A DNA stretch of 64,000 nucleotides. Source: Rhodobacter sp. CZR27. Its GTDB lineage: Bacteria > Pseudomonadota > Alphaproteobacteria > Rhodobacterales > Rhodobacteraceae. The notes beneath the pieces are model-generated. The model saw only the letters and a list, made by a program, of their open reading frames with translations. It was not told the DNA's origin and searched no databases. The position numbers and the translations under genes were made by a program. This document shows positions 23,329 through 38,470 of this stretch, piece by piece; positions within the stretch are counted from its first letter, which is position 1, and each line of letters begins with the position of its first letter. The stretch covers positions 1,388,501 to 1,452,500 of the forward strand of contig NZ_CP023548.1 of assembly GCF_002407205.1 (NCBI RefSeq), in the 5' to 3' direction.

Positions 23329-25323
23329 ATGACTGACGCCCGAAGCGACCGCCCGGCGGCGCCGTCGGCCGATTATGACCACGGCGCCACGATGCGCGCC
23401 TGGGAAAACCTGCTCAGCGGCGTCGCGGCCGAGGGGCCGGCCGCCGGCGTCCGGCCGGAGATCCTCGCCTCGTGGCAGCGCTGCCGCAAGGTCGGAACCG
23501 ACGCGCGGGCCTGCGAGGCGCCGCTGCACTCCTGCGAGGAGACGCTGCGCGAACGGTTGCAGGGCGCGCAGGAACTGCTGGAGGCCGCGACCGACACGCT
23601 CGACCAGCTGGGCCGCCTGCTGGAGGGGGCGGGGGCGATGCTGCTGCTCTGCGACGCCTCCAGCATGGTGATCCGCGCCATCGGCGATGCGCGCACGCGC
23701 GACCAGGGCCGCGAGATCAACCTCGAGGTCGGCGGGACCTGGGACGAGGCGGTGATCGGCACCAACGGCATCGGCACCGCGATCCGCGAGGAGCGGCCCA
23801 CCTTCGTGCATGCCTCCGAGCATTTCTGCGCCGGCATCAAGGGCTGGAGCTGCGCCGCCGCTCCGATCCGCGATCCGTTCGGCTTCGGCACGGTGGGGGC
23901 GATCGACCTTTCGGGCGGCCCCTCGATCTTCCGGCCGCACAACCTGGCGCTGGTGGCGGCGGCGGCGCGTGACATCGAGGCGCGCCTGGCCGAGCGCCGC
24001 CGGCAGGAGCGCGAGCGCCTGCTGGAGGCCTTCATCGACACGAGCGCCGGACGCGGTCCCGAAGACGGCGTCGTGATCCTCGACCGCATGGGGCGGGTCG
24101 CCTTCAGCCGCAACATCGCGCCCGAGGCGCAGGATGCCACAGGTCCGCTCCGCCTCGGTCACATGCTCGTCGACCTGAAGCGGCTGTCAAGCGACAGCCA
24201 GATCGCGGCTGCCCTGCCGCCGATGCTGCGGCCCAGCGGGATCAGCCGGCTGATCCTAGATGGCGAGCAGCGCGGCACGGTGCTGCATCTGCCGCGGCCC
24301 CGCGTCGTCTCCGCGCCGCGTCCGGTCGCGGCGGTGGCGAGCCTGATCCCGCCGCGCGCCGGCACCGGCGAGGCCCCGCTGCCCATCATCGGCCAGAGCG
24401 GCGAGTTCCTGAACGCGCTCGACCTTGCCCGGCGGGCGGCGGAGGCGGGCGCCTCGATCCTGATCCAGGGCGAGACGGGAACCGGCAAGGAGCTTTTCGC
24501 ACGCCTCGTCCACGCCTCCTTCGTGGCGCGCAAGGCGGATGCGCCGTTCATCACGATGAACTGCGGCGCGATCTCGGTCGAACTGGTGGCGTCCGAGCTG
24601 TTCGGCCATGTCGCGGGCGCCTTCACCGGAGCGATGCGCGACGGGCGGCCCGGCAAGTTCGAGCTGGCGCATGGCGGGGTGCTCTGCCTCGACGAGATCG
24701 GCGAGATGCCGCTGGACATCCAGCCCTATCTGCTGCGCGTGCTGGAGCAGCGGGCGATCTACCGTGTCGGCGACAGCCGGCGGCGGCCGGTGGACGTGCA
24801 GGTGGTCGCGATGACCAACCGCGACCTGATGGACGATGTCTCGGCCGGCACCTTCCGCCGCGACCTCTATTACCGGATCAGCACCGTGACAATCGAGGTG
24901 CCGCCGCTGCGCGCGCGTCGGGGCGACGTGCCGCTGCTGATCGCGCATTTCAACGAGGCCGCCGCGCGGCGGATGGGCCGGGCGCCGCTGCGGTTCTCGG
25001 ACGAGGCGATGGCCCTTCTGGATGGCTGGGACTGGCCGGGCAACGTGCGGGAGTTGCGCAACCTCTGCGACCGGCTGCATGTCTTCCTGCGCGGCGAGGA
25101 TGTGCGCGCGACGGACCTGCCGGAGTCGATCCGCCGCGGTCCCGCACGGCCCGGCCCGCGGTCCGAGGATCTGAGCCTTGACGAGGTGGAGGAGGCCGCA
25201 ATCCGCCGGGCCTTCGCCGCCGCCGAGGGCAACGTGACGCGCGTGGCGGCCATGCTCGGGATCTCGCGGCCGACGCTCTACCGCAAGATGCGCCATTACG
25301 GCATCCGCCGGACCTACGAGTGA
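23329..25323 (+). CDS. Sigma54-dependent activator (AcoR/MmoR type)
   Basis: 664 residues. Three parts are visible: an N-terminal sensor with a GAF-like domain (AEHFC-type segment WSCAAAPIRDPFG around residue 180), a central AAA+ domain with Walker A GETGTGKE at 381-388 and the sigma54-contacting loop GAFTGA at 430-435, and a C-terminal Fis-type helix-turn-helix (NVTRVAAMLGISRPTLYRK). This is the layout of AcoR and of MmoR, which activates soluble methane monooxygenase. It converges on the prm operon, so it is the likely activator of the promoter at 34724-34739, sensing an alkane or its oxidation product. Start at 23329 is backed by GGGAGACGCGGG upstream. Confidence 0.93.
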   Translation: MTDARSDRPAAPSADYDHGATMRAWENLLSGVAAEGPAAGVRPEILASWQRCRKVGTDARACEAPLHSCEETLRERLQGAQELLEAATDTLDQLGRLLEGAGAMLLLCDASSMVIRAIGDARTRDQGREINLEVGGTWDEAVIGTNGIGTAIREERPTFVHASEHFCAGIKGWSCAAAPIRDPFGFGTVGAIDLSGGPSIFRPHNLALVAAAARDIEARLAERRRQERERLLEAFIDTSAGRGPEDGVVILDRMGRVAFSRNIAPEAQDATGPLRLGHMLVDLKRLSSDSQIAAALPPMLRPSGISRLILDGEQRGTVLHLPRPRVVSAPRPVAAVASLIPPRAGTGEAPLPIIGQSGEFLNALDLARRAAEAGASILIQGETGTGKELFARLVHASFVARKADAPFITMNCGAISVELVASELFGHVAGAFTGAMRDGRPGKFELAHGGVLCLDEIGEMPLDIQPYLLRVLEQRAIYRVGDSRRRPVDVQVVAMTNRDLMDDVSAGTFRRDLYYRISTVTIEVPPLRARRGDVPLLIAHFNEAAARRMGRAPLRFSDEAMALLDGWDWPGNVRELRNLCDRLHVFLRGEDVRATDLPESIRRGPARPGPRSEDLSLDEVEEAAIRRAFAAAEGNVTRVAAMLGISRPTLYRKMRHYGIRRTYE

Positions 25324-25428
25324 CGGGCCGAAGCGCCATTTTCCGGGAGGGCTTCGGCCCGGCGGAAGGGCGCCGCGGGCCCACGAGCGCCGGGTGAGGC
25401 GAGGGGCGTGCCGTCGCAATGGCCACGT

Positions 25429-25465: not shown

Positions 25466-26563
25466 TCACTTCACCGCTTCGGCCACCCGCTCCGACGCCG
25501 CGACCTTCTTCGGCGGCGCGCCCGGCACGATCACGCCGCGGCCGGTGAAGCGGCGGTTCTTGAAGTCGTCGATCGCCGTGTTGATGTCGTCGAGCGCGAA
25601 TTCGGTCTGGTGCATCCTCACCTTGCCGTCCGCATTCAGCTCCATCAGTTCCACCAGTTCGGTGTAGTCGCCGACCAGACTGCCGCCGATGCGGATCTCG
25701 CGCGCGACCAGTTCCAGCGTCGGGATCTCGATGGTGCCGCCATAGCCCACCATGATCAGGTCGCCGCCGTTCTTCAGCAGCTTCCAGCACAGGTTCTCGA
25801 CGCCCAGTTCGCCCACGAAGTCGATCACCACCTTCGCGCCGCCGCCGGTGATCTGGCGCACCTCCTCGATGATGTCCGGCCCGCCCGAGAGCACCTTGTC
25901 CGCCCCCAGTTCCTTGGCCAGGACCTGCGCGCCGGGCTCGCGGTCCACTGCGATCGTCCGGCAGCCGGCCATCTCGTTCAGGACCTGCAGCGCGATATGC
26001 CCGAGGCCCCCCACGCCGAGGATCAGCGCCCATTCGCCGGGGTTCAGCAGCTTCGCCGCCCGCTTCGCCGCCCGATAGGCGGTGATGCCGGCATCGGCCA
26101 TCGGCGCGACCGACAAGGGCGTGATCCCGGTGTTCAGCTTGATCAGCGAGCGTTCGGAGGTCTTGAAATACTCGGCAAAACCGCCGTCTAGTCCGAGACC
26201 GGGAAAGAGACTGTGCTGGCAGTGCATGTCGTGGCCATGCCGGCAGTTCAGGCAGATGCCGCAGGTCCTGAGCGGATGGCAGATCACCGCGTCGCCGGGC
26301 TTGACCGAGGTCACGGCCGAGCCCACGTCCTCGACCCAGCCCGCGTTCTCGTGGCCCATGATGTAGGGCAGGAGGGTCCCGCCCGTGTCCATGAAGTCCT
26401 TCCACACCCCCTCGATGATGTGAAGGTCGGTGCGGCAGAGCCCGGCCGCGCCCACCTTGACGATCACCTCGTCTGGACGCTCGATGGTGGGGGCGGGGAC
26501 GTCCTCGATCTTCAGCCGGACGTTCATCGCGGGGTCGTATTCATAGAGCCTTGCAGCCTTCAT
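25466..26563 (-). CDS. Zinc-dependent NAD(P) alcohol dehydrogenase
   Basis: 365 residues from ATG 26563, with AGGAGG 8 nt upstream. Medium-chain dehydrogenase features: catalytic zinc ligands C43 and H71 (GHEN motif), structural zinc cysteines C101, C104, C107 and C115, and a Rossmann GVGGLGH motif near residue 190. As the last gene of the monooxygenase operon it most likely oxidises the alcohol made by hydroxylation (2-propanol to acetone, or a primary alcohol to the aldehyde). Homologous prm clusters in Rhodococcus and Gordonia also include such a gene. Two hairpins separate it from the chaperonin gene, so its mRNA level may differ from the rest. Confidence 0.92.
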   Translation of the reverse strand: MKAARLYEYDPAMNVRLKIEDVPAPTIERPDEVIVKVGAAGLCRTDLHIIEGVWKDFMDTGGTLLPYIMGHENAGWVEDVGSAVTSVKPGDAVICHPLRTCGICLNCRHGHDMHCQHSLFPGLGLDGGFAEYFKTSERSLIKLNTGITPLSVAPMADAGITAYRAAKRAAKLLNPGEWALILGVGGLGHIALQVLNEMAGCRTIAVDREPGAQVLAKELGADKVLSGGPDIIEEVRQITGGGAKVVIDFVGELGVENLCWKLLKNGGDLIMVGYGGTIEIPTLELVAREIRIGGSLVGDYTELVELMELNADGKVRMHQTEFALDDINTAIDDFKNRRFTGRGVIVPGAPPKKVAASERVAEAVK

Positions 26564-26583
26564 CGGGTTCCTCCTGGAAATCG

Positions 26584-26649
26584 GCTCGCCCTTCCGGCGA
26601 GCGGGTGTCGGGATCGAGGGCGCCCGCCGGGGGAGACGCCGGCGGGCGC
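26584..26649 (-). terminator. Two tandem hairpins between chaperonin and dehydrogenase genes
   Basis: Stem 1 is GCTCGCC/GGCGAGC at 26584-26602 with a 5-nt loop; stem 2 is an 11-bp stem GCGCCCGCCGG/CCGGCGGGCGC at 26620-26649 with an 8-nt loop. They may be a partial terminator or an mRNA-stabilising or processing site inside the operon. Confidence 0.55.
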
Positions 26650-26654
26650 TTGCC

Positions 26655-28286
26655 TCACGGCCGCCCGAGCCGCTCGGCACCGCCGCCGAGGGCGGGACCC
26701 TCGGTCGGATCCTCGACCTGCTCGAAGTGGCCGACGAGGGTCTCGGTGGTCAGGATCAGCGCGGCGACCGAGGCGGCATTCTGCAGCGCCGCGCAGGTGA
26801 CCCGCACCGGGTCGATGATCCCGGCCGCGATCATCTCGCGATACTGGCCCGAGGCCGCGTCGAAGCCGGTGCCGGACTCGGCCTCGGTCACGGCCTTCAC
26901 CACGGCATTCGGGTCGCTGCCGCGGTTCAGCGCGATCCGCGCCAGCGGCCGCGTCAGCACCGAGCGGACCAGCCGCACCCCTTCGGCCACGTCGCCGGAC
27001 AGCCCGGTCAGCGTGTCGAGCACCGGCGCCACCTGCGCAAGCGCCGTTCCGCCGCCCGGCACCACGCCATCCTCGGCGGCGGCGCGCACCGCGTTCAGCG
27101 CATCCTCGACCAGCTGGATCGTGCGCTTCTGCTCCACCGGCGTCACGCCGCCGGCATGGATGATCGCCGTTCCGCCCGAAAGCTTGGCCACCCGTTCGCG
27201 CAGCTTGTCCTGCTCGATGTTCGGGGGGGCGGCCTCATACTGGCGCTGGACCTGCGCCCGGCGGGCGGCGATGGTGGCCGCGCAGCCCTCGCCGCGCAGG
27301 ATGGTGGTGTGGCTCGCGCTGGTCACCACCCGTGCCGCGCCGCCCAGCTGCGCCCGCGTGACCGCCCCGACCTTCTGGCCCAGGTCGCGCGCCAGCACCG
27401 AGCCGCCGGTCAGGATCGCGAGGTCGTCCATCATCGCGCGCCGCCAGTGGCCGTATTCCGGCGGGTGAACCACCAGATACCTCTCGGGCGCCGGCGCCTC
27501 GAGCAGCGAGATCACCACCTCGGGCGAGACCTCCTCGGCGATGACGAGAAGCGGGCGGCCTTCCTCGCGCGCGATGGTACGGGCGGGGTGCAGGTCCTCG
27601 GGGTCGCGGATCTTCTGGTCGGTCATCAGGATCAGCGGCCGGTCGAGATGGGCCTCCATGCTCTCGGTGTCGGTGACCATGTGGTGCGAGAGATAGCCGC
27701 GGTCGAAGGACATGCCCTCGATCACCTCCAGCACCGTCTCGACCGTCACGCCGTATTCGGTGGTGATGACGCCGCTGGTGCCGACGCGCGCATGCGCCTC
27801 GGCCACCAGCGCGCCGAGCGCCTCGTCGGTGGCCGCGATCCGGGCGACGGCGGACAGGATCGCCTCGTCATCGGCGGCAGGGCGGGCGGTTTCCTTCAGC
27901 GCGGCCACCACCCGACCCACGGCAAGCTCGATACCGCGGCACAGGTCCACCGGCTTCGCGCCCTTCTCGGCCAGGATCACCCCCTGCTGGATCATGGCGT
28001 TGGCCAGCACGATGGCGGTCGTGGTGCCGTCGCCGGCCACCTCGTTCGTCTGCATCGAGACCTCGCGCACGACCTGCGCGCCCATGTTCTCGAAGCGGTC
28101 GGGCAGTTCGATCTCCGAGGCGATCGAGACCCCGTCGCGGGTGACGAGGGGCGTGCCCACCGGCCGGTCGATCATGGCGTTCATGCCCTTCGGGCCCAGC
28201 GTCGGCTCGACCGCCGCGGCGAGGCGGGCAACCCCGCGGGCCAGCGCCTTCCGCGCCTCGTGATTGTGCAGCATCTTCTTCGGCAT
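26655..28286 (-). CDS. GroEL-like chaperonin dedicated to the monooxygenase
   Basis: 543 residues. The chaperonin core is clear: VGTPLVTRDGVSIASEIEL, the ATP motif GDGTTT at 85-90 (Asp86 is the catalytic position), and AAAEDGVVPGGGTA near residue 400. It is divergent from housekeeping GroEL (for example TRDGVS instead of TNDGVT), lacks a GGM tail and has no groES beside it. GroEL-like genes in mmo and mim clusters (MmoG, MimG) are known to be needed for a soluble, active hydroxylase large subunit. By position between the MIP18-like gene and the dehydrogenase gene it is very likely the specific folding helper of PrmA. Confidence 0.92.
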   Translation of the reverse strand: MPKKMLHNHEARKALARGVARLAAAVEPTLGPKGMNAMIDRPVGTPLVTRDGVSIASEIELPDRFENMGAQVVREVSMQTNEVAGDGTTTAIVLANAMIQQGVILAEKGAKPVDLCRGIELAVGRVVAALKETARPAADDEAILSAVARIAATDEALGALVAEAHARVGTSGVITTEYGVTVETVLEVIEGMSFDRGYLSHHMVTDTESMEAHLDRPLILMTDQKIRDPEDLHPARTIAREEGRPLLVIAEEVSPEVVISLLEAPAPERYLVVHPPEYGHWRRAMMDDLAILTGGSVLARDLGQKVGAVTRAQLGGAARVVTSASHTTILRGEGCAATIAARRAQVQRQYEAAPPNIEQDKLRERVAKLSGGTAIIHAGGVTPVEQKRTIQLVEDALNAVRAAAEDGVVPGGGTALAQVAPVLDTLTGLSGDVAEGVRLVRSVLTRPLARIALNRGSDPNAVVKAVTEAESGTGFDAASGQYREMIAAGIIDPVRVTCAALQNAASVAALILTTETLVGHFEQVEDPTEGPALGGGAERLGRP

Positions 28287-28349: not shown

Positions 28350-29132
28350 TCAGGCGCGGCCGGCAAGGGGTTCGCGCGGCGGAACCCGGTTCAGGATGAA
28401 GTCGATCAGTTCCGGCTCCTCCGGGCTGTCCCGGTATCGTGCGGCCTGAAGCCCCCTGCAGAGCGCGCCGTTGAACTCCATGTTGATCCGGACGGAGCGA
28501 AGGCGGGCCATGTGCGCCGGAAGCGTGGCGGGCGAGAGGGGATCGCCCGCCCAAGTCACGAAGGCCGGATCGCCCGGGGCGGCGGCGCGGAGCGAGTCCC
28601 GCAGGATCGCCCGGTAGCGCGGAAGCTCGGCCGCGGCCGGACCCGAGGTGAAGCGCAGCCGGTCCAGATCGGCCAGCGTCATGGCGCAGATCGCCTCGTC
28701 CGGGACCTGCCGCTCGCGCAGCGCGAGCAGCACGGCCTCCTGCCGGCGCTGGAACGCCTTTTCCTCGAACTTCGCGCGCAGCTCGTCGAGGTCGCCGCCC
28801 TCCTCCTCGGCGAAGACGCAGGCGAAGGGCAGGCCCTCGTTCACGCCGCGGTTCACCTTGTCGGCGAAGAGGTGATCGACCAGCCGCACGCGCACCTGCG
28901 CGACCCATGGCAGCGCGAGGATCTCGCGCCGGATGCCCTCCGCCATCAGGAAGGCGAAGTTGGGCGAGCACCAGTAGGTCGGCAGGCGGAAGTCCACCTC
29001 GACCCGGTCGCGCAGAACCGCAATGCGCTCGATGAAGCCCAGATCCGTCACCGGCTCGTCAAGCTCGGGGTCGGAGACGCGGGCAAGGCGGGCCCAGAGC
29101 TGGGCCCCCTTTCCGGTTGTCGGCGCCTGCAT
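28350..29132 (-). CDS. MIP18/DUF59-like protein of the prm operon
   Basis: 260 residues from ATG 29132, 4 bp after the amidohydrolase stop. The N-terminal 100 residues match the DUF59/MIP18 pattern (VSDPELDEPVTDLGFIERIAV, then FRLPTYWCSPNFAFLMAEGI), known from SufT and PaaD proteins involved in iron-sulfur or metal-centre assembly. The rest is a helical extension with no named motif. A gene of this type lies in the prm clusters of actinobacteria. A role in maturing the di-iron or [2Fe-2S] centres of the monooxygenase is a reasonable inference. Confidence 0.75.
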   Translation of the reverse strand: MQAPTTGKGAQLWARLARVSDPELDEPVTDLGFIERIAVLRDRVEVDFRLPTYWCSPNFAFLMAEGIRREILALPWVAQVRVRLVDHLFADKVNRGVNEGLPFACVFAEEEGGDLDELRAKFEEKAFQRRQEAVLLALRERQVPDEAICAMTLADLDRLRFTSGPAAAELPRYRAILRDSLRAAAPGDPAFVTWAGDPLSPATLPAHMARLRSVRINMEFNGALCRGLQAARYRDSPEEPELIDFILNRVPPREPLAGRA

Positions 29133-29136
29133 CGGC

Positions 29137-30159
29137 CTACTCCGCCGCAGCCAGGACCGGATGGTCCGCGAAGTCGCGCCGCTTGGCCTCGATGTCGATG
29201 CCGTAGAGCCGCGCCGCATTGAGCCCGAGGATCTTTTCCTTGATCTCGTCGGTCAGCTGCACCCCGCGATCGGCGGCGATGTCCTCGGGGATCTGGAAGT
29301 TCCAGAACCGCTCGACCAGCCATTTCGGCGTCCAGATCGCATAATCCGACCCGAAGAGCAGCTTGTCCGGCCCGAGCCAGAACAGAAGCTCGGCCATCAC
29401 CTCGGCGAAGTAGCGCGGGCGGGTGTGGATGAACGGGAGCGCCACGGCAAGGCCGCCGTAGACATTGGTCTCCTGCACCGCGATCCAGCAGAAGTCGTCC
29501 AGCCGCGGCAGGCCGCAGTGCTCCACGATCCAGTTCAGCCCCTGGAAGTCGGTCGCCGCATCGTCCACGTCGCCCACCGAGAAGCTGTCCTTGGACAGGG
29601 GAATGATCGTCGGGCCCTTGTGGACATGCATGTTGCGGATGCCGAGCTTTTCGCACAACTCGAAGCACTTGTAGGCGGCGGGGTCGGTCAGCTTCCAGCC
29701 GCGGCTGTCGCCGTGCCATTCGGCGGTGTAGAGCTTGACGCCCTGGATGTCGTGCGTCTCCTTCATGTAGTGGATGTATTCCAGCGCCTTCTCGCCGTCG
29801 CGCGGATCGAAGGCGCCATTGACGATGAAGCGGCCGGGATTGCGCGCGGCCATCCTGGCAGAGCGCTCGATGCAGCCGAAGCCGGTCTTGTAGAAATCGC
29901 CGAGCACGGTCGTCTGGATGATCGCCATGTCGTCGGGGCCGTCCACGAACAGGTCGCGGTAGATGTCATCCTCGGAACATTTTTCGAAGCGGGACTTGTC
30001 CCACTGTTCGTCCTTCGGGCTCAGCGCGGAATGATAGGCATAGAAGCAGTCGATGAACTGCTTGCCGTGGATGTTGGCCTGGTTCTCGGGGCTGCCGTCC
30101 CAGAAATGGGTGTGGGCATCCACGACGAAGATCTCGCGGCCGTCAGCGGTGCGGTACAT
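29137..30159 (-). CDS. Amidohydrolase-family protein of the prm operon
   Basis: 340 residues. The N-terminus has VDAHTHFWDGSPE, the metal-binding HxH start of amidohydrolase-2 proteins; further along are IVNGAFDPRDG, VKLYTAEWH, MHVHKGPTI and a late FGSDYAIWTP motif carrying the conserved Asp. The fold is a TIM barrel with one or two metal ions. Genes of this type are found next to prmD in propane monooxygenase clusters, where the substrate is not established. It could act on a downstream product or help metal loading. Confidence 0.85.
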   Translation of the reverse strand: MYRTADGREIFVVDAHTHFWDGSPENQANIHGKQFIDCFYAYHSALSPKDEQWDKSRFEKCSEDDIYRDLFVDGPDDMAIIQTTVLGDFYKTGFGCIERSARMAARNPGRFIVNGAFDPRDGEKALEYIHYMKETHDIQGVKLYTAEWHGDSRGWKLTDPAAYKCFELCEKLGIRNMHVHKGPTIIPLSKDSFSVGDVDDAATDFQGLNWIVEHCGLPRLDDFCWIAVQETNVYGGLAVALPFIHTRPRYFAEVMAELLFWLGPDKLLFGSDYAIWTPKWLVERFWNFQIPEDIAADRGVQLTDEIKEKILGLNAARLYGIDIEAKRRDFADHPVLAAAE

Positions 30160-30217: not shown

Positions 30218-30586
30218 TCAGATGTATTCGAACACCTCGTCCATGTTTCCGAACAGGATCACGGTATTGTCGTCCACCCGGACCATGCGGCCGTAGTGGG
30301 TCGAGGTGTTCACCTCGAACATCTCGGCCGTCATCTCCTTGCCGAGGAACTCGCTGATCTCGTCCATCTTGAAGATCAGCTTGCCCTCGCCGTCGATGCG
30401 GATCAGCGCCGGGTTGTAGGTGACGGTCACCTTCGGATCCTGGTCCATGAACTCGGCGATGGCGCGCGCCTCGACCGAGTCATTCATGGTGACGCCGCAC
30501 TGGTGCGAGATCGTCTGCTCGAAGGTGATGTCTTTCATCGACTTGAAGATGTTGGACTTGGTGCTGTCGCGGGCTGCAACGGACAT
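30218..30586 (-). CDS. prmD: Monooxygenase coupling (effector) protein PrmD
   Basis: 122 residues. It matches the MmoB/DmpM effector family: QTISHQCGVTMNDSVEARAI, VTVTYNPALIRIDGEGKLIF and MDEISEFLGKEMTAEMFEV followed by the HYGRMVRVDDN segment. Effector proteins bind the hydroxylase without cofactors and tune its oxygen reactivity. It lies 11 bp after prmC. The order A-B-C-D equals that of propane monooxygenases of Gordonia and Rhodococcus. Confidence 0.93.
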   Translation of the reverse strand: MSVAARDSTKSNIFKSMKDITFEQTISHQCGVTMNDSVEARAIAEFMDQDPKVTVTYNPALIRIDGEGKLIFKMDEISEFLGKEMTAEMFEVNTSTHYGRMVRVDDNTVILFGNMDEVFEYI

Positions 30587-30597
30587 GTCACGTCTCC

Positions 30598-31656
30598 TTA
30601 GCGGGAAAGGCCGAGTTCGCCGAGAATCCGCTCCAGCCGCTCGTGCGAGACGGCCCGGACATCCTCGAAGCTCACGGGTTTGGAGTGGGGCTGCGACCAG
30701 ATCGGCTGAAGCGCCGCCGCCGCGCGGTCGGCCAGCGCGGCATGCCTGCCGATCCAGGCCTGGAACAGCGCCCGGTTCGCCTCGCCGTGCTGCTCGTCAT
30801 TGGCCAGCAGATACATCAGGTCGATGGTGTTCGCGAGGTTGCGCTCGTAATCCGCCTCGGCCGCCGAGATCACCGGGGGGGTGATGAAGTCGTTGTTGGC
30901 CGCCGCCGCCTGCATCAGGAAGCCCGAGCGGAACAGCTCGCCCACCAGCGGCTCGAAGATCAGGTTGATCGCGAAATACTGCTCCAGGTAATCCTCGGTC
31001 CCCATGATGGTCTCGACCGCCTCGCGGCAGGGCTGCCAGACCGGATCGTCAAGCCAGGCGCGCTTGCCGGCCTCGTCGTCCCAGCCCTCGATGTCCATGC
31101 CGATCTCGGCCAGATACAGCGTGATGTCCTGCGCGAGCCGCATCTTGTAGGAGGCGTTGGTCAGCGTCGCGTTGTTGATCATCTGCGTGTAGCCGTAGCG
31201 CTGCGCCTGCATCAGCGAGGTGCCGAGCCCGAACTCCGCGTGCTTCCAGGCGCCCAGATGGGTCTGGAGGATCTTGACCCAGGCGCGGTCGAAGGCGCGG
31301 GGCGCGCCGGCCTTGCGGGCATTCGCAATCACCGACTGCACCATGGTCTCGATCTTCGACTGGCGCTGGTAATGCGTGCGCTCCCACTCCTGGTCCGGCG
31401 CGCGGAAGGCGTGCCAGTTCGAGCTGCGGGCATGGGTGTTGTCCTTGGTATAGGCGCCCTTGCCGTTCGAGAAGCTGATGATCCAGTCCTGGATCAGGTA
31501 GCGTTCGGGATCGGGCTGGACGTCGCAGGTCACGTCCTCGTAGTGGGTGGCCCGCTTGCCGCGCGGCTCGAAGTAGTTGTAGCGCCGGCTGGCGGAGCCC
31601 GCGAAGATCGCCGCTCCCGCGGCGCCCGAGCCCACCGAACTCGAAAGTGCTGGCAT
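30598..31656 (-). CDS. prmC: Propane-type monooxygenase hydroxylase small (beta) subunit PrmC
   Basis: 352 residues with the ferritin-like fold of di-iron hydroxylase beta subunits. Features: RRYNYFEPRGKRATHYEDVT near residue 25, WERTHYQRQSKIE, QTHLGAWKHAEFGLG and the aromatic-rich LEQYFAINLIFEPLVGELF segment. It has no iron ligands of its own, as expected for beta subunits. It pairs with PrmA in the hydroxylase. Closest in pattern to propane and phenol/ketone monooxygenases (Prm, Mim), not to toluene monooxygenases. Confidence 0.93.
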   Translation of the reverse strand: MPALSSSVGSGAAGAAIFAGSASRRYNYFEPRGKRATHYEDVTCDVQPDPERYLIQDWIISFSNGKGAYTKDNTHARSSNWHAFRAPDQEWERTHYQRQSKIETMVQSVIANARKAGAPRAFDRAWVKILQTHLGAWKHAEFGLGTSLMQAQRYGYTQMINNATLTNASYKMRLAQDITLYLAEIGMDIEGWDDEAGKRAWLDDPVWQPCREAVETIMGTEDYLEQYFAINLIFEPLVGELFRSGFLMQAAAANNDFITPPVISAAEADYERNLANTIDLMYLLANDEQHGEANRALFQAWIGRHAALADRAAAALQPIWSQPHSKPVSFEDVRAVSHERLERILGELGLSR

Positions 31657-31686: not shown

Positions 31687-32781
31687 TCAGTGTCCCGATG
31701 CGCCGGAGGTTGTGGTGAAGCGGTCGAAGAAGATGCGATCGCTGTCGAAATCGAGCATGAAGAGCACGGGCTGCAGCGCGTCGATCATCGGCGGCGGCCC
31801 GCAGGCATAGACGTCGCCCTGGCCCTCGATCCCTTCCTCGCGCAGGATGCGAGAGACCGCCTCGTGGACGAAGCCGCGCTCGCCCTCCCAGCCGCAATCC
31901 ACGGCGGCATGCGACAGGACCGGGATGAAGCGGACGGAGGGGTGCGCCGCCGTCAGGGCCCCGATCTCCTCGAGATGGAAAAGATCCTCGGGCGTGCGGG
32001 CTCCGTAGAAGAACAGCACCTCGCGATCCTCGCCGCTTTCCACGTGATCCTGCAGGATCGACCAGACCGGCGACATGCCCGAGCCCGCGCCGACAAGGAT
32101 CACCGGTCCTTCGCGCCCTTCGCGCCGGAAGCACATCCCGTAGGGTCCGGTGACGGAGACGGAGGCCCCGAGCCGGATTCCCCCGCTGTCGAGCTGGTTC
32201 GAGAACTTCCCGTCGGGGTATTTCTTGATGATGAAGCGCAGTTTCTGGGTTTCGCCCGGCGGATTTGCCATGGAGAACGACCGCGTAATCGTCTCCCCTT
32301 CTTCGGTGGTGACGGTGATGTCGACATACTGTCCGGCCCAGAATTTCAGGGGGGCGTCGATCTCGATCTCGACCCCGCGGATGTCGTGGGTGAGGGCGCC
32401 GAAGCCGGTGATGCGGCCGGCGAAGGTTCTCACCGGGATCGACTTGGACAGGACCTCCTCGTCATAGTTCAGCAGGTCGATCGTCAGGTCGTCGAAGGGC
32501 CTCGCGCGGCACATCAGGATGTGGCCGCTGTCGCGCTCGCCGTCGTTGAGCGCGAAGGTGGAATACTTCAGCATGTCCACCTCGCCCTCGACCAGCACGC
32601 ATTTGCAGGCCGAGCACTGGCCCTCCTTGCAGCCATGCGGCAGCGCGATGCCCTGCCGGAAGGCGGCATCGAGCACGGTCTCGTCCTCGCGCACCTCGAA
32701 TTCCACGCCCACCGGTTCGAGCCGCACGGTGTGGGTCTCGACCGCGGTCTCGGGTCGCTTCGCTGCGGTATGAACGCCCAT
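31687..32781 (-). CDS. prmB: Monooxygenase reductase PrmB
   Basis: 364 residues. N-terminal plant-type [2Fe-2S] ferredoxin with C51, C56, C59 and C91. Then an FAD-binding domain with the RSFSMANPPG motif near residue 168 and an NAD-binding domain with GAGSGMSPVWSIL near residue 245, ending in a CGPPPMID motif. It passes electrons from NADH to the hydroxylase di-iron centre. It sits 73 bp after prmA, separated by a GC-rich hairpin. Confidence 0.94.
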   Translation of the reverse strand: MGVHTAAKRPETAVETHTVRLEPVGVEFEVREDETVLDAAFRQGIALPHGCKEGQCSACKCVLVEGEVDMLKYSTFALNDGERDSGHILMCRARPFDDLTIDLLNYDEEVLSKSIPVRTFAGRITGFGALTHDIRGVEIEIDAPLKFWAGQYVDITVTTEEGETITRSFSMANPPGETQKLRFIIKKYPDGKFSNQLDSGGIRLGASVSVTGPYGMCFRREGREGPVILVGAGSGMSPVWSILQDHVESGEDREVLFFYGARTPEDLFHLEEIGALTAAHPSVRFIPVLSHAAVDCGWEGERGFVHEAVSRILREEGIEGQGDVYACGPPPMIDALQPVLFMLDFDSDRIFFDRFTTTSGASGH

Positions 32782-32854: not shown

Positions 32855-34522
32855 TCAGTGGCAGGGATTGATGGTGAAGCCCGCGCGGTAGTCGGCGAGG
32901 TGCTTCTCGCGCGCCTCGGGGCTCATCTCGCGCAGGAGGGTGAGCGGCGAGAGCAGCGTGTGGCCGCGCACGTCGTCGAGCGTCCACATGTCCTTGTCGT
33001 CGAAGCGCAGGTGCGGCTGCGGCGTCAGCGTCTTGCCATCGTCGCGGACGAAGTTCAGGTCCTTGATCGCATCGGCGAGATCCCAGCCGTGATAGAGCGT
33101 CTCCCACTCGCGCTTGCCCGAGAAGCGGCCCATCGCGGGGGTCGGCCGGCCCTGGTATTCGTCGGCGAAGGCCTCGACGGCGGTCCAGCGGTCCAGCTCA
33201 TGCGCGAAGGTGTGCAACTGTCCGTCGATCTCGTCCACCACCATGTCCTCGCGGATCAGGCAGGGCACGAGGCAGGACCAGCAGCGGTGCGGATAGACGT
33301 AGCCCACTTCCTCGTTGAAGGTGATGATCTTCTGCCCGGGCTTCGAGAGCTTCGCATACCAGCGCCAGAACTCGCCGAACTCGGCATACCAGCCCGGATA
33401 CTTGTGCTCGAACCACTCGAAGTCCTTGTCGGTCTGGGCCTCGATCCGCCAGAAGTTCACCGGCCACCCCACCGCGAAGAACTGCGCGACCTTGTGGACG
33501 TAGTGCTTCTTGGTGATCCGGTTCCACGCCTCCTGCACGTCGTCGTGGTGCACCTTGATGCCGTATTTCTCGAGCGGCAGCATGTAGGTGCGGTAGTAGT
33601 CCTCGAAGATCCAGCGGTGCCACATCTCCGCGTAGGACTCCTTGTCCTTGTCGCGGTTGGTGGTGCCGTATTCGATGAAGGTGCCGATGGCCGCATCGAC
33701 GATCGCGTGGTTCTGCCAGAAGGCGTAGCGCAGGTCGCGTTCCAGCAGCAGGTGGTTCTCGGGCTCCTTCAACGCGGCCATCAGCAGCGAGTGGCCGTTG
33801 CCGATGTGGCGGCTCTCGTCCGATTGAACGGACAGGAAAACCGTCGGCAGCGCATAGTCGCCGTTGCGCGCGGCTTCCGAGGGCATGGCGACGAACAGCG
33901 TGTTTGTGAAGGCGGTCTCGGCCACGACCGTCAGATACATGCAGGCCGCGGTCATCGTGTCGCCGGTGATGAAGCCCTCGCCGAACTGCCGCCCGATGGT
34001 GGTGGCGTAGCACTTCCCGAACGCCTCTTCGGTAATGTCGAAGCCAGCCGGGTCGATGTAGTTCTCCATATACCACTTCTTCAGGTTCATCTGGATCGTG
34101 GAATGGCGGAACTCATCGACCATCTGCATGGTAAAGCCGGTGCGCAGGTCCTCGCCGGGCGCGAGGCGGGCGACCATGGCCATCGACCGCGCGGCCGAGA
34201 TCTCGGGGAAGGGGATGATCGCCAGGAACAGCTTCATCCACTCGACCCAGCGCGGCTCGACATTGCGGAACATGTCGCCGCGCAGCGCCGCATCCAGCGC
34301 GCCATAGACGCGGTTGTCCTTTTCCTCCTGCATCGGGAAATACGAGCGCAGCACCTGCTTCATCGGATCGCGCGGCGCCTTGGCGATCTTGTAGTCGGTC
34401 GGGAAGGTCGCCGCCTCCTGGACGTAGGTCGGGTTCCAGCCGAGGTCGGAAATCCTTTTCGTTGCCTCGCCGACGGAGATCCCGCGTTGCGAGGTGATCT
34501 TGTTCAGCGTCAAAGACGTCAT
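32855..34522 (-). CDS. prmA: Propane-type monooxygenase hydroxylase large (alpha) subunit PrmA
   Basis: 555 residues from ATG 34522, with GGAGG 8 nt upstream. All six di-iron ligands can be placed: E107 (IPFPEIS), E137 and H140 (DEFRH), E202 (AETAFTN), E236 and H239 (DESRH). Each is offset by exactly 7 from the soluble methane monooxygenase numbering. The sequence is very close in pattern to actinobacterial PrmA and MimA (for example YFPMQEEKDNRVYGA, WFEHKYPGWY, CWSCLVPCLIRED). It hydroxylates short alkanes, probably propane at C2, and perhaps acetone or phenol as Mim enzymes do. Substrate cannot be read from sequence. The transcript probably starts near 34712 from a sigma54 promoter. Confidence 0.95.
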   Translation of the reverse strand: MTSLTLNKITSQRGISVGEATKRISDLGWNPTYVQEAATFPTDYKIAKAPRDPMKQVLRSYFPMQEEKDNRVYGALDAALRGDMFRNVEPRWVEWMKLFLAIIPFPEISAARSMAMVARLAPGEDLRTGFTMQMVDEFRHSTIQMNLKKWYMENYIDPAGFDITEEAFGKCYATTIGRQFGEGFITGDTMTAACMYLTVVAETAFTNTLFVAMPSEAARNGDYALPTVFLSVQSDESRHIGNGHSLLMAALKEPENHLLLERDLRYAFWQNHAIVDAAIGTFIEYGTTNRDKDKESYAEMWHRWIFEDYYRTYMLPLEKYGIKVHHDDVQEAWNRITKKHYVHKVAQFFAVGWPVNFWRIEAQTDKDFEWFEHKYPGWYAEFGEFWRWYAKLSKPGQKIITFNEEVGYVYPHRCWSCLVPCLIREDMVVDEIDGQLHTFAHELDRWTAVEAFADEYQGRPTPAMGRFSGKREWETLYHGWDLADAIKDLNFVRDDGKTLTPQPHLRFDDKDMWTLDDVRGHTLLSPLTLLREMSPEAREKHLADYRAGFTINPCH

Positions 34523-34723
34523 GCCATGAGCCTCCATGTATGGCGCGGGCAGCGGCCCGCGGGGGTGCGGCCCGGAAGGGGCCGGCGGTCTGCGGATCAC
34601 GGCAAAGGTTCGGGGCTCTGCACCTCCGCCGCAGCGCCGGACCGGCGGACGGCGGCCTCCTCCCATCCTTCGTTCTTCTGCCGTCGGCCTTTCGGCGATG
34701 ACGGACGGTTATGCCGGAATGGA

Positions 34724-34739
34724 AGCACGTCCGGTGCCA
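34724..34739 (-). promoter_or_regulatory. Sigma54 (-24/-12) promoter of the prm operon
   Basis: On the minus strand TGGCACCGGACGTGCT: a full TGGCAC -24 element, five bases, and GTGC in place of TTGC, with GG and GC exactly 10 nt apart. Expected transcript start is about 34712, some 190 bp before ATG 34522. A sigma54 activator and an rpoN gene flank the operon, which supports the call. Confidence 0.75.
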
Positions 34740-34895: not shown

Positions 34896-34909
34896 GTTAC
34901 AGGTGTAAC
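34896..34909. promoter_or_regulatory. Palindromic activator-type site GTTACA-GG-TGTAAC
   Basis: GTTACAGGTGTAAC is an inverted repeat of 6-bp arms with a 2-bp spacer, about 160 bp upstream of the prm -24 element. A second GTTACA half lies at 34927-34932, and related GTAACA, TGTAAA and GTAACG/TGTCAC halves at 35010-35015, 35028-35033 and 35042-35056. The cluster fits an upstream activator sequence for the AcoR-type regulator serving both divergent operons. Confidence 0.55.
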
Positions 34910-35103
34910 GCGCCGGGTGATCCGGCGTTACAGCACGCGGACAGCTCGGGCGATTCGCGGCCTCGCCAGGGGTGCCGCGCCGCGGCGCCCGCGTTCTGCA
35001 CCTGCGACCGTAACAGGCTGAAACGGCTGTAAAGTCCCGGCGTAACGCCCTGTCACGATCGGCCCGGACGCCGCCGAAAAATATGTGTGCAGGATGCGCT
35101 TTT

Positions 35104-35176: not shown

Positions 35177-35641
35177 ATGTCCGGTTCCGAGGATCTTCCC
35201 ATCGGCAGGCCCGTGCCATCGCGTCTGGTGGCCGAGCGCGTCCTTGCGCGCGCCCCGCAGGATCTGGTCTTCGTGATGCGCTTCCTTGGCGAGAGCCAGG
35301 ACATCCTGCAGGCCCACTTCCGCCTGTTCCTGACCCGCCGTCTGGCCGAGGCGGGGGCCACGGCGGACGAGCATCCGCTGCTTCCGTTCTTCATCGACAG
35401 CCATGCCTCGGAGTTGCGCGACTTCGTCTTCACCGGCGTGTCGCTTGCCCGCCAGTTCCGCCTGCGCGAGATCGAGGAGCTGACGGGGGATGCCGAGGCC
35501 ACCATGCGCATCGACGTCTGGGACGCCATCGCAAGCCATATCGAACTGGCCGAGGCGCGGTTCGCGGACGGGATCGGCGCGGTGGTCGAGCGGCTGCGTC
35601 GGCAGGAGGCCGATCTGCACGCCGCGCGGAGGCCGGAATGA
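35177..35641 (+). CDS. Unknown helical protein, first gene of the rpoN operon
   Basis: 154 residues from ATG 35177 with GGAGGCGAGGA upstream. The sequence is almost entirely helical, with FVMRFLGESQDILQAHFRLF near residue 32, a conserved-looking HPLLPFFIDSHASELRDFVF stretch near residue 66 and an amphipathic C-terminus. No signal peptide, membrane segment or known motif. It is coupled to the next gene by an ATGA overlap. Shared control with prm suggests an accessory role in the monooxygenase system, but that is inference. Confidence 0.7.
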   Translation: MSGSEDLPIGRPVPSRLVAERVLARAPQDLVFVMRFLGESQDILQAHFRLFLTRRLAEAGATADEHPLLPFFIDSHASELRDFVFTGVSLARQFRLREIEELTGDAEATMRIDVWDAIASHIELAEARFADGIGAVVERLRRQEADLHAARRPE

Positions 35642-35898
35642 GCGCGCTGCTTTTCGCACGGATTGCCGCCGTGGGCGAGATCGCGCGGCTGGAATCGGAC
35701 CGCCAGCGTCTCGTCCGCACGCTTTCGGGCCTCGAGATCGAGGCCGCCGGCGGTGCAGCCGTGGATGCGGGGCGCGCCGCGGCCGAGGAGGCGCTAGCCG
35801 CCTGCGACCTGCGCATGACGACGCTCGAGGCGCGTCTTGCGCAACTGGACCGGGATCTGGCGGCAGAGGCGTCGCCGGGAGAGGAGAGAAAGCCATGA
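35638..35898 (+). CDS. Short coiled-coil protein of the rpoN operon
   Basis: 86 residues, ATG overlapping the previous stop and its own stop overlapping the next ATG. Leu/Ala/Arg-rich with heptad-like spacing (RLVRTLSGLEIEA, then MTTLEARLAQLDRDLA), so a coiled coil is likely. No family recognised. It probably interacts with the product of one of its coupled neighbours. Confidence 0.65.
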   Translation: MSALLFARIAAVGEIARLESDRQRLVRTLSGLEIEAAGGAAVDAGRAAAEEALAACDLRMTTLEARLAQLDRDLAAEASPGEERKP

Positions 35899-36980
35899 AC
35901 CAGACGCTCGCACTGACACCCTTCGATCTCCTCTCCCGGCGGTGGCTGCGACCGGCGGAAGTGTGCGGGGCGATCTTCGAGGCCAGCGGCAAGGCCGTGG
36001 TCTTTCGCGATGTCGAGGGCCGGCTGGCGCTGGCGCCTGTGGCCGATGCCGAGGATACGCCGGCCCGCCTGAGGCTGGAACTCGAAACGGGGCGTGCCGT
36101 GATCCGTCCGCGCCAGCACGAACCCGCGCCGCTTGCCGAGGCGGCGCTCGTCACTGCCGCGATCGCGCCGTTTCCCGGGCCCGGGGTGCTTGCCGCCGAT
36201 GCCGCGGGCGCGCTGCACCGCGTGACGCCGAGGGGACAGGTGACAGCGCTTGCCCCGGCCGCCGGGCCGGTCAAGGCACTCGCCTGTGACCCCGTGCATT
36301 TCAGCCTGGTCATTGCCCGCGAGGCGGGGGTGGAGATCCTCGACGCCGATCTTCGCCGGCTCGGCCACGTGGAGACCGACCGGCCCCGCGGGATCGCCGT
36401 CCGCGACGGCCGCATCGCCGTGGCCCATGCCGGCGGCCTGACGCTTCGCGACGCGACCTCCTGCCGCCACCTCGCCATTCCGGAGCCCGAAGGCGCGCCG
36501 GCGCTCGACCCCTCGGGGAGCTGGGCGGCGGGGCGGACGGCCGCGGGCGGTCTGTGGCTGGCCGAGATCGCCACGGGCCGGATCGCGCATCTGGCGGACT
36601 TTCCGCTGCCGCCTGCGTCGGTCGGCTTCGACACCGCCGGGCGGCTCGTGACCTCGGGCGCCTATCGGCTTACCGCCTGGAGCCTCGACCGGCCGCCGTT
36701 CGAGGATGGGATGGCAGGAGCGCTCCGGACCGGGCGGCCGGGGCTGGTGGCGGTGACGGCGGCGGCACCCCATCCCCGGCGCGATGTCGTGGCGGTCGGG
36801 CGGGCCAACGGGGAACTCGCGCTCGCCCGGCTGGGCCAGCCGGACGAGATGGTGCTGCGGCCCGGGGACGGCGACGCGATCGGGGTCCTCGTCTGGTCGG
36901 CGGATGGCCGGCACCTGGCCATCGGCACGCGCGGCGGTCTGGCTGCCCTCGTCGATTTTCCCGCACAGATCTTCAAATGA
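35895..36980 (+). CDS. Beta-propeller (WD40-like) protein of the rpoN operon
   Basis: 361 residues. The C-terminal half shows repeated propeller blades, for example PHPRRDVVAVGRANGELALA followed by LVWSADGRHLAIGTRGGLAAL; weaker blades fill the middle (DPSGSWAAGRTAAGGLWLAE). No signal peptide, so it is cytoplasmic and likely a scaffold for protein contacts. Family not recognised beyond the fold. It is translationally coupled to the coiled-coil gene upstream and followed 16 bp later by a 57-residue gene. Confidence 0.68.
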   Translation: MNQTLALTPFDLLSRRWLRPAEVCGAIFEASGKAVVFRDVEGRLALAPVADAEDTPARLRLELETGRAVIRPRQHEPAPLAEAALVTAAIAPFPGPGVLAADAAGALHRVTPRGQVTALAPAAGPVKALACDPVHFSLVIAREAGVEILDADLRRLGHVETDRPRGIAVRDGRIAVAHAGGLTLRDATSCRHLAIPEPEGAPALDPSGSWAAGRTAAGGLWLAEIATGRIAHLADFPLPPASVGFDTAGRLVTSGAYRLTAWSLDRPPFEDGMAGALRTGRPGLVAVTAAAPHPRRDVVAVGRANGELALARLGQPDEMVLRPGDGDAIGVLVWSADGRHLAIGTRGGLAALVDFPAQIFK

Positions 36981-36996
36981 GCCACAGGAGGCTGCC

Positions 36997-37170
36997 ATGA
37001 CCACCCGCAATCACCTTGACGAGCCGAGCAAGGACGCGTTCTTCGCCCGCATCGCCGAGCTTTCCGACGAGATGATCGCCGCGCATGGCCGCGACTTCGC
37101 CGTGGGCGCCCTGGTGCTTGCCGCGCGCTTCATCTGCGACCGGACACCGGACGCGCTGAACCGCCACTGA
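36997..37170 (+). CDS. Small 57-residue protein of the rpoN operon
   Basis: 57 residues from ATG 36997 with CAGGAGG 6 nt upstream. Helical, with DAFFARIAELSDEMIAAHG and FAVGALVLAARFICDRT. No motif known. Strong ribosome site and position inside the operon favour a real gene; longer frames through it are shadows of the propeller gene. Confidence 0.65.
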   Translation: MTTRNHLDEPSKDAFFARIAELSDEMIAAHGRDFAVGALVLAARFICDRTPDALNRH

Positions 37171-37181
37171 AGGAACCCGCG

Positions 37182-37223
37182 ATGACCGGTCCCCGCCCCC
37201 CCGCGCCGGGTTGCGCGGGATGA
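37182..37223 (+). CDS. 13-codon leader ORF overlapping rpoN
   Basis: ATG 37182 has AAGGAA 7 nt upstream; the frame is 13 sense codons, Pro/Gly-rich, and ends with TGA in an ATGA overlap with the rpoN start at 37220. rpoN itself lacks a good ribosome site, so this leader may deliver ribosomes to it. Confidence 0.45.
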   Translation: MTGPRPPAPGCAG

Positions 37224-38470
37224 GCCGGCTCGGCCTGCGTCTCGGGCAGCGGCAGGTCCAGACCGTCAGCCAGCTGGCGGCGCTCTCGCTGCTCAGGATG
37301 GATGCCGCCGAGCTTTCGGCCCATCTTTTGGCCGAGGCCCGGCGCAATCCCTTCCTTCGGCTTCGCTCTCCGGCGCTCGGCGCTCCCCTGTCCGGAACGG
37401 AGCCGTTGGCCGCCGCACCCGGCCTGCACGACCATGTGCGCGCCGAGATCGGCCTGCGCCTCACGAGGCCGGCGGACCTGCATCTTGCGGAGCGGTTCAT
37501 CGAGGCGCTGGCGCCCTCGGGGTGGCTGGAGCAGCCGGTGGAGGCGATCGCGGCCGCGGCGCGCGTCCCGGTGGCCCATGCCCTTGCCCTGCTCGAGATG
37601 CTGCAGCAGATCGAGCCGGCCGGCCTGTTCGCGCGCAGCCTGCGCGAATGCCTGCGCCTGCAGGCGGCCGACCGTGGCCAGTTGACGCCGGCGATGGAGC
37701 GGGTGCTCGACCGGCTCGACCTTCTGGCGGCCAAGGGGCCCGCCGCGGTCGCCGTCGATGCCGGCCTTGATCCGGCGGAAGTCGGCTGCTGCCTTGGCGC
37801 GATCCGCCGCATGGATCCCAAGCCCGGCGCCCGGTTCGACGATGCCGCGCACGCGCCGCCGCTGCGCGAGCCCGACCTGCTGGCGCGACGCTCTGCCGGG
37901 GGATGGACGGTGGAGCTGAACCGCTCGCTCCTGCCTGCCGTCCGGGTGGCGGATCTTCCCGCCGGACGGCCGGGGGACGAGGTCGCACGCCTCAGGCGCG
38001 AGGCGCGCGAGTTGCAGCGCGCGCTGTCGCGGCGGGGCGAGACGGTGCTACTGGTCGGCGCCGAGGTCGCGCGGCGCCAGCAGGCGTTCCTCGATCATGG
38101 CCCGGACGCCCTGCAGCCCCTGCGACTGGCCGACGTGGCGCGACCGCTCGGCCTGCATCCCAGCACGGTGAGCCGGGTGGTCAGCGGGCTTCTGTTGCAG
38201 ACCCCGCACGGCATCGTGCCGGTGCGGCTGCTGTTCCGAAGCGCGCTGGCGGCAGGCGAGGGCGGCGGCGTGACCGCGGCCGTCCTGCAACAGCGCATCC
38301 GCGCCCTCGTCTCGGCCGAGGACGGGCGTCGCCCGTTGGACGACGAGGCGCTGGCCGCGGAGCTGGGACGCGCCGGCATCCGGGTGGCGCGACGAACGGT
38401 CGCGAAGCATCGGGCGCTGGCAGGCATCCTTCCGGTGGCGCAGCGTCACGCCCTGCCGCGCGAGGCGTGA
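37220..38470 (+). CDS. rpoN: RNA polymerase sigma-54 factor (paralogue)
   Basis: 416 residues. The N-terminal region I is recognisable but altered (LGQRQVQTVSQLAALSLLRM in place of the usual QxLxMTPQLQQAI). Acidic region II is nearly absent. The core-binding domain follows, then the helix-turn-helix LGLHPSTVSRVVSG, the TPHGIVPVRLLF segment and the RpoN box ARRTVAKHR near the C-terminus, which reads the -24 element. R. sphaeroides-type bacteria carry several rpoN copies, each matched to its own activator. Its place across from prm points to a sigma factor devoted to this island. Start at ATG 37220 is set by overlap with a short leader ORF. Confidence 0.93.
   Translation: MSRLGLRLGQRQVQTVSQLAALSLLRMDAAELSAHLLAEARRNPFLRLRSPALGAPLSGTEPLAAAPGLHDHVRAEIGLRLTRPADLHLAERFIEALAPSGWLEQPVEAIAAAARVPVAHALALLEMLQQIEPAGLFARSLRECLRLQAADRGQLTPAMERVLDRLDLLAAKGPAAVAVDAGLDPAEVGCCLGAIRRMDPKPGARFDDAAHAPPLREPDLLARRSAGGWTVELNRSLLPAVRVADLPAGRPGDEVARLRREARELQRALSRRGETVLLVGAEVARRQQAFLDHGPDALQPLRLADVARPLGLHPSTVSRVVSGLLLQTPHGIVPVRLLFRSALAAGEGGGVTAAVLQQRIRALVSAEDGRRPLDDEALAAELGRAGIRVARRTVAKHRALAGILPVAQRHALPREA

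Follow-up and report, generated by a model that had tools for sequence, protein, structure and literature searches.

A prm-linked sigma54 and four candidate helper genes beside a propane monooxygenase-type cluster in Rhodobacter sp. CZR27

Within a 64,000-nucleotide (nt) stretch of Rhodobacter sp. CZR27 DNA (contig NZ_CP023548.1, positions 1,388,501 to 1,452,500; hereafter the window), a prmABCD cluster encoding a propane monooxygenase-type diiron enzyme lies divergent from an operon of four uncharacterised genes, termed P1 to P4 here, and an rpoN gene for sigma54. We judge it somewhat probable that the prm cluster makes up a self-contained regulon under its own sigma54 and that P1–P4 are dedicated helpers of the monooxygenase. 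This reading draws on gene linkage, the grouping of the linked copies in a sigma54 tree, the sigma54 counts of the hosts, the pattern of prmA promoter sequences and the enrichment of a motif upstream of the promoter. A broader formulation, in which a transferable private sigma54 package (sigma factor, activator and promoter) is combined with a P2–P4 maturation module belonging to one propane monooxygenase clade and with a new structured prmA leader RNA, is held more tentatively, as falling just short of an even call.

Co-occurrence of P1–P4 with prmA

The first-pass annotation, made from the letters of the window, had connected the four genes with alkane oxidation. Their co-occurrence with prmA supports this link, and the genes are not widespread without prm. 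A P1 profile scan with one genome per species returned 88 relatives, from which 80 loci were kept; the set was found through P1 and is therefore biased. BLAST over these loci detected prmA sequence in 79, P3 in 79 and P4 in 78, and the sole locus without prmA (L072) is on a contig that starts 57 bases before P1. In 75 of the 79 loci the prmA match covers 540 or more of the 555 residues; short matches coincide with contig ends in L075 and L093, and reach 287 residues in L020 (Pseudogemmobacter bohemicus) and 504 residues in L056, neither of which yielded prmB–D.

Of 394 family genomes, 12 have prmA (E ≤ 1e-150) and 14 have P4 (E ≤ 1e-4); P3 and P4 adjoin prmA in all 12 prmA genomes (ten fetched loci, the window and G004). 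P4 without a prmA match occurs in G538, where P3, P4 and an activator share a 5-kb contig with the prm leader motif at its end (24.8 bits), and in G654 (L229), a decayed remnant with fragments of prmA, rpoN and P3. In 385 genomes of the class, prmA was found in three, and P4 in two of those three and in no other; the P4 match of G384, from this sample, contains one stop codon as aligned. On plasmids, prmA (E ≤ 1e-100) was present in 21 records and P4 in 13, 11 of them prmA-positive. The P4-bearing plasmid locus of Rhizobium sp. CB3171 has prmA down to 35 residues, with prmB–D and groEL remaining, and that of Phyllobacterium zundukense has no prm and lies near ISL3 transposases. Of the ten prmA plasmid records without a P4 match, four are from Azospirillum, three from Rhodococcus, two from Methylocella and one from Indioceanicola, and none has a PrmA above 80.5% identity; since P4 is present in Skermanella, where PrmA is 79.6% identical, PrmA similarity alone does not decide P4 presence. 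P3, P4 or both also persist at loci where the prm cluster has decayed or suffered deletions (L229, L153, L151, L020 and L056).

The picture of the four genes and rpoN as one conserved unit did not survive this comparison. P1 was not detected in seven of the 12 family loci (L216–L221 and L223) or in the Caballeronia, Paracoccus aminophilus and Ponticoccus loci. A linked rpoN is found in 10 of the 12 family prmA genomes, being unlinked in two, and by BLAST in nine of the 80 P1 loci, all of them from Rhodobacterales. P3 followed by P4 is the arrangement in most loci, and P4 adjoins prm without detectable P1 or P3 in L097 and L152. The conserved core is P2–P3–P4, P4 above all, and P1 and rpoN are separate, lineage-specific additions.

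The prm-linked sigma54

The rpoN product in the window exhibits three sigma54 domains above Pfam cut-offs (AID PF00309, 29.7 bits; core-binding PF04963, 119.7 bits; DNA-binding PF04552, 142.7 bits), and its RpoN box reads ARRTVAKHR, compared with ARRTVAKYR in two aligned rhizobial copies. In a tree of 56 sigma54 proteins, all 21 prm-linked copies were placed on one side of a single branch (bootstrap 94; Shimodaira–Hasegawa-like approximate likelihood ratio test, SH-aLRT, 74), and 92% of 200 bootstrap trees recovered a single origin of the linked copies. In an earlier tree of 46 rows, the SH-aLRT value was 91 for 14 of 14 linked copies. Two sequences were left out of the trees, a Limibaculum fragment of 28 positions and a third sigma54 from Gemmobacter aquatilis, and G421, the same genome as G001, was dropped from the counts. 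As would be expected of a dedicated sigma54, the linked copies form a separate clade, with moderate tree support, and are linked to one regulon.

Any rpoN (E ≤ 1e-10) was found in 102 of 325 family genomes, compared with 12 of the 12 prm genomes. Six of the ten hosts with a linked rpoN encode no further full sigma54, two of these six also showing a borderline sigma54 fragment (31 and 42 positions), and the two prm genomes without a linked rpoN encode sigma54 elsewhere. Among 20 genomes from the P1 scan, Gemmobacter serpentinus and the metagenome-assembled genome UBA1943 (G425/G428) carry the linked sigma54 only. The genome of the window, which is Cereibacter-like, has four rpoN genes. In Cereibacter, four is the count in the three genomes with the P3 locus, and the two genomes without P3 have three and two; the last of these is 83% complete, and the comparison goes by P3 and not by a prmA search in those two. 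On plasmids of 310–531 kb, prm clusters with their own sigma54 were observed in L103, L104 and L105.

A nearly absent region II and an altered region I had been noted for the window copy; neither is a feature of this copy alone, as other Cereibacter sigma54s also have a short region II, and paralogues also have a degenerate region I. Region II spans 23 residues here, and its median is 24 across the 21 prm-linked copies; 14 further Cereibacter sigma54s have 36–40 residues, and nine rhizobial ones a median of 98. A short region II was rejected as a hallmark: it is short across the lineage anyway, though shorter still here. Region I matches the consensus at 14 of 29 positions; the figures for the remaining sigma54s of this genome, three in number, are 19, 11 and 10.

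The linked rpoN might instead be an ordinary extra sigma54 that serves several activators, with linkage reflecting cluster transfer and not specificity. We consider this improbable. It would suit G425/G428, which have the linked copy alone yet encode more than one sigma54-type activator domain, and the degenerate region I of other paralogues. It accounts poorly for the grouping of the linked copies and the altered prm promoters that accompany them, for the three other sigma54s that Cereibacter hosts keep beside the linked copy, and for the precedent of Cereibacter sphaeroides, three of whose rpoN paralogues are each reported to be paired with one activator (PMC11999139).

The prmA promoter and its activator

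A −24/−12 site, picked by best score, lies upstream of prmA in nearly every locus and is mostly the exact consensus. TGGCAC-N5-TTGC occurs exactly in one of 21 loci with a linked rpoN (L221) compared with 71 of 73 loci without, and the first T of TTGC is changed to C or G in 14 of the 21 compared with none of the 73. Five of seven roseobacter-type loci have TGGAAC. These counts leave out L022, L075, L092 and L093, whose contigs end before rpoN linkage is decidable, and L214 and L215, which are the same loci as L024 and L103; G004 (L009) is included.

The motif YGTAAC/GTTACR, chosen after inspecting the window, has a mean of 1.74 occurrences in the 280 nt upstream of the promoter compared with 0.21 in shuffled sequence (89 loci), and two or more copies are present in 54 of the 89 loci. 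An activator with the GAFTGA motif is positioned at the opposite end of the cluster in seven of seven roseobacter-type loci, and a GAFTGA-less activator was accordingly rejected as their sole activator. As a separate observation, AAA+ activator-like genes without GAFTGA lie near prm clusters with a linked sigma54 (L103 2617–4386, L105 2055–4004, L216, L218, L221 and L223).

On the P1 side, a sigma54 promoter for the P1 operon was considered and rejected: none of the 80 regions, taken from the window and 79 loci, reaches a score of 15, and their median of 12.1 does not exceed that of shuffled sequence (12.6). Because no sigma54 site rises above background there, a different sigma factor probably serves the P1–rpoN operon, an arrangement that would suit a gene needed first.

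A conserved prmA leader RNA

The motifs AAGAACGAAGG (or a one-letter variant) and ACCTTTGCC are found between the promoter and the prmA start in 80 of 89 loci. An N-terminal extension of prmA (a 603-residue open reading frame, ORF) was rejected, since across the 80 leaders every reading frame is represented, whether the motifs are placed against the prmA start or against one another. In a covarying hairpin ahead of the first motif, seven of seven pairs have changed on both sides, where shuffles average 4.8 and 13 of 500 reach seven. Pairing is retained in 80.9% of cells compared with 65.3% when shuffled (0/500) and at most 62.2% when the hairpin is slid, in an alignment that was fitted to the structure and so leans towards it. 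Its 44 rows exclude nine leaders that do not have both motifs and 36 that are nearly identical to others. A covariance model built from 22 leaders was run over 69 sources totalling 1.43 Mb, nearly all of them prm loci, and gave 55 matches at E ≤ 0.1. No source had more than one match, and each lies at the prmA leader except that of L228, which is near a contig end. The only Rfam match, ar14, falls under the gathering cut-off (17.6 compared with 58.8 bits) and is on the other strand, and a search of openly accessible papers found no description of a prm leader RNA. By comparative sequence analysis, the prmA leader is a conserved, putatively structured RNA that is absent from Rfam.

P1–P4 as proteins

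P1 to P4 and rpoN are real genes. At E ≤ 0.001, P1 has 167 homologues and P4 has 146, and P3 has at least 26 among the best 7999 candidates. The ratios of nonsynonymous to synonymous substitution between the congeners G004 and G001, computed on stop-to-stop frames, are 0.07 for P1, 0.27 for P3, 0 for P4 and 0.25 for rpoN. P2 is fast-evolving, with a BLAST match in just four of the 80 P1 loci; a counterpart of 73 amino acids (aa) is present in both congeners, and a similar-sized gene occupies the P2 position in the annotated relatives L100, L103, L104 and L105.

Structure prediction bears out the helical class first assigned to P1 (predicted local distance difference test score, pLDDT, 87.9) and models P4 as a helical hairpin (pLDDT 82.3). 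The propeller assignment of P3 draws on weak matches to WD40-type models (best E 3.5e-4, under Pfam cut-offs) and on the precomputed WD40-type domains of its homologues, while the coiled-coil look of P2 was judged by eye. No Pfam or NCBIfam family above cut-off was matched by P1, P2 or P4 (PHROGs and PADLOC were not searched), and a profile search of the PDB gave no relative of P1. GTP cyclohydrolase and RbcX were set aside as fold relatives of P1, both being weak rows that were not trusted. A domain scan of P1–P4 gave neither a DNA-binding domain nor a known sensor domain, and the search of openly accessible papers gave no description of these proteins.

Since beta-propellers often serve as binding platforms, P1–P4 might be parts of a scaffold or localisation complex, with P3 as its hub, that keeps the monooxygenase and the later enzymes together. 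The coiled-coil-like P2 and the succession of P3 and P4 in most loci would accommodate such a complex, which we nevertheless regard as very unlikely: P4 adjoins prm without a detectable hub in L097 and L152.

Proposed mechanism

In the proposed regulon, the GAF-type activator (23329–25323) would bind GTAAC-type repeats in the prmA–P1 intergenic region and activate, at TGGCACCGGACGTGC, the holoenzyme of the cluster's own sigma54, turning on prmABCD and the following genes. In Rhodobacterales the cluster would usually bring its own sigma54, the preference of which may have drifted jointly with the prm promoter. Such a sigma54 could work in hosts that have none and would avoid mixing with the nif or flagellar sigma54 where these are present. 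P1–P4 would most probably act alongside the GroEL and PaaD-like proteins of the cluster to assemble, mature or maintain the diiron hydroxylase.

Accessory and sensing roles had initially been proposed side by side for P1–P4; we infer that an accessory or maturation role is the likelier of the two. P1–P4 appear to follow the enzyme more than the regulators because P3 and P4 are kept with either a linked or a host sigma54, a persistence that points towards the enzyme and away from sensing, and because P3 and P4 are undetected in several of the loci with the most diverged PrmA. Assembly or upkeep is the leading guess because GroEL and a PaaD-like protein are encoded in the same cluster.

It is unlikely, in our estimate, that P1–P4 are regulatory and sense alkane, product or redox state so as to modulate the activator or the cluster sigma54. 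Partner proteins of some other enhancer-binding proteins provide precedent for this, the GAF domain of the activator could respond to a partner, and the Cereibacter P1–P4 genes are divergent from prm and upstream of rpoN in the same operon. The lack of a sigma54-like site on the P1 side (0/80) further suggests that their expression probably does not depend on prm induction, as would fit a regulator. A regulatory role is harder to reconcile with the persistence of P3 and P4 without a linked rpoN, with that of P4 without detectable P1 or P3, and with the result of the domain scan.

Several observations weigh against a self-contained regulon with dedicated helpers. L020 and L056 retain P1, P3 and P4 despite a cut prmA and missing prmB–D, and three prm clusters that look complete, those of Azospirillum B510, Methylocella tundrae and G063, gave no detectable P1, P3 or P4, so P1–P4 are not needed by every such enzyme. 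Fold searches with the P1 and P4 models gave no informative match and no functional clue. L221 combines a linked rpoN with a canonical promoter; the loci with a linked rpoN are related, so that their promoter changes are not independent events; and five low-scoring sites (L105, L216, L218, L219 and L223) do not exceed the shuffled 95% point of 14.3. In Gemmobacter fulvus, no GAFTGA activator was found in C3:40000–95900. Clade support in the sigma54 tree is moderate, and the program warns of long branches meeting. Finally, the further sigma54-type activator domains of G425/G428 suggest that the linked sigma54 may not be strictly private: the private sigma54 of the first-pass annotation holds in outline, given the grouping, the sole full sigma54 of several hosts and the altered prm promoters, and its strict exclusivity is doubtful in these two genomes.

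Layout of the operon and prm cluster

P1–P2–P3–P4–rpoN form a tight plus-strand operon, divergent from the prm cluster and ending in an intact rpoN, as first proposed and as borne out by the ORF coordinates, by overlaps of 4 nt for both P1/P2 and P2/P3, and by short gaps of 16 nt (P3–P4) and 49 nt (P4–rpoN) (Table 1). An in-frame TTG at 37211 lies ahead of the rpoN ATG. A 13-codon ORF (37182–37223, plus strand), the stop of which overlaps the rpoN ATG (ATGA), could couple translation of P4 and rpoN. The prm genes are ordered alpha subunit, reductase, beta subunit and coupling protein, which we take to be the mark of group V soluble diiron monooxygenases (SDIMOs), and the alpha and beta subunits carry methane/phenol hydroxylase domains. 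An antisense ORF (24256–25419) opposite the activator gene mirrors the conservation of that gene and was not taken as a gene. Two further uncharacterised genes recur in Gemmobacter- and roseobacter-type prm loci beside P2–P4 and rpoN.

Table 1. Features of the operon and the prm cluster, in window coordinates unless a locus is named
Feature	Position	Strand	Remarks
P1	35177..35641	+	154 aa, helical, family unrecognised
P2	35638..35898	+	86 aa, coiled-coil-like
P3	35895..36980	+	361 aa, WD40-like beta-propeller protein
P4	36997..37170	+	57 aa, helical hairpin; most consistent prm linkage of P1–P4
prm-linked rpoN (sigma54)	37220..38470	+	416 aa, ATG at 37220
prmA, hydroxylase alpha subunit	32858..34522	-	domain matches
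prmB, reductase	31687..32781	-	domain matches
prmC, hydroxylase beta subunit	30598..31656	-	domain matches
prmD, MmoB/DmpM-type coupling protein	30218..30586	-	ORF; homologues annotated MmoB/DmpM family
Amidohydrolase	29137..30159	-	PF04909
PaaD/FeS_assembly_P-type protein	28350..29219	-	domain matches
GroEL-type chaperonin	26655..28286	-	domain match
Zinc-type alcohol dehydrogenase	25466..26680	-	domain match
Enhancer-binding protein, far end of prm cluster	23329..25323	+	GAF, sigma54 AAA+ with intact GAFTGA, Fis-type helix-turn-helix
Sigma54-type prmA promoter TGGCACCGGACGTGCT	34724..34739	-	GTGC replaces TTGC
YGTAAC/GTTACR motifs, candidate activator-binding sites	34896..35047	+	motif enrichment
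prmA 5' leader RNA (putative)	34601..34714	-	hairpin, AAGAACGAAGG (34677-34667) and ACCTTTGCC (34609-34601)
91-aa and ~320-aa extra genes	L103 8510-8785, 5870-6835; L105 5200-5475, 7146-8099		

Implications

Sigma54 is usually regarded as a host factor common to many regulons. The prm-linked sigma54 seems to move together with one catabolic cluster and, in several hosts, to be the sole sigma54; if true, this would explain the spread of a sigma54-dependent pathway in a family with rpoN in only 102 of 325 sampled genomes. The prm cluster looks like a portable unit that could work in hosts without sigma54. Propane monooxygenases are of interest for the removal of short-chain alkanes and, by co-metabolism, of pollutants, and P2–P4 are unstudied candidates for what limits their heterologous expression. 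For RpoN4 of the model organism C. sphaeroides, so far unassigned, the analysis points to a possible regulon.

Comparison with known systems

C. sphaeroides has four rpoN genes, of which RpoN1 with NifA, RpoN2 with FleQ and RpoN3 with AprX are matched pairs, and nothing is reported to be known of RpoN4 or other activators in the part of PMC11999139 that was available. The Cereibacter genomes examined resemble this system in that three of five have four rpoN genes, and the prm-linked copy resembles the C. sphaeroides paralogues as a dedicated sigma54 with a short region II. Unlike RpoN1–RpoN3, it is tied to alkane oxidation, is also found on plasmids with the cluster and is often the only sigma54 of its host. 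By elimination, the prm-linked sigma54 and its activator may be the missing RpoN4 pair of C. sphaeroides.

In the soluble methane monooxygenase cluster, rpoN adjoins mmo. Transcription of mmo needs RpoN, and MmoR and MmoG are encoded by cluster genes, according to the sections of PMC5874634 available to us. The window shares with that cluster the combination of diiron monooxygenase genes, a sigma54 activator and a GroEL-like gene, and differs from it in enzyme group and gene order.

The prm genes of Gordonia TY-5 and Methylocella silvestris BL2 are ordered alpha, reductase, beta and coupling protein. The accessible text of PMC9213486 records prmABCD of SDIMO group V from these two organisms and monooxygenase clusters that include amidohydrolase, iron-sulfur (assembly) and hypothetical proteins; P1–P4 are not among the cluster proteins mentioned there. 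The prm loci of Methylocella tundrae and Azospirillum B510 are unlike the window in that no P1, P3, P4, linked rpoN or either leader motif was detected there. What the window has in common with group V prmABCD is the same gene order and, in the loci examined, a GroEL-like gene beside prm.

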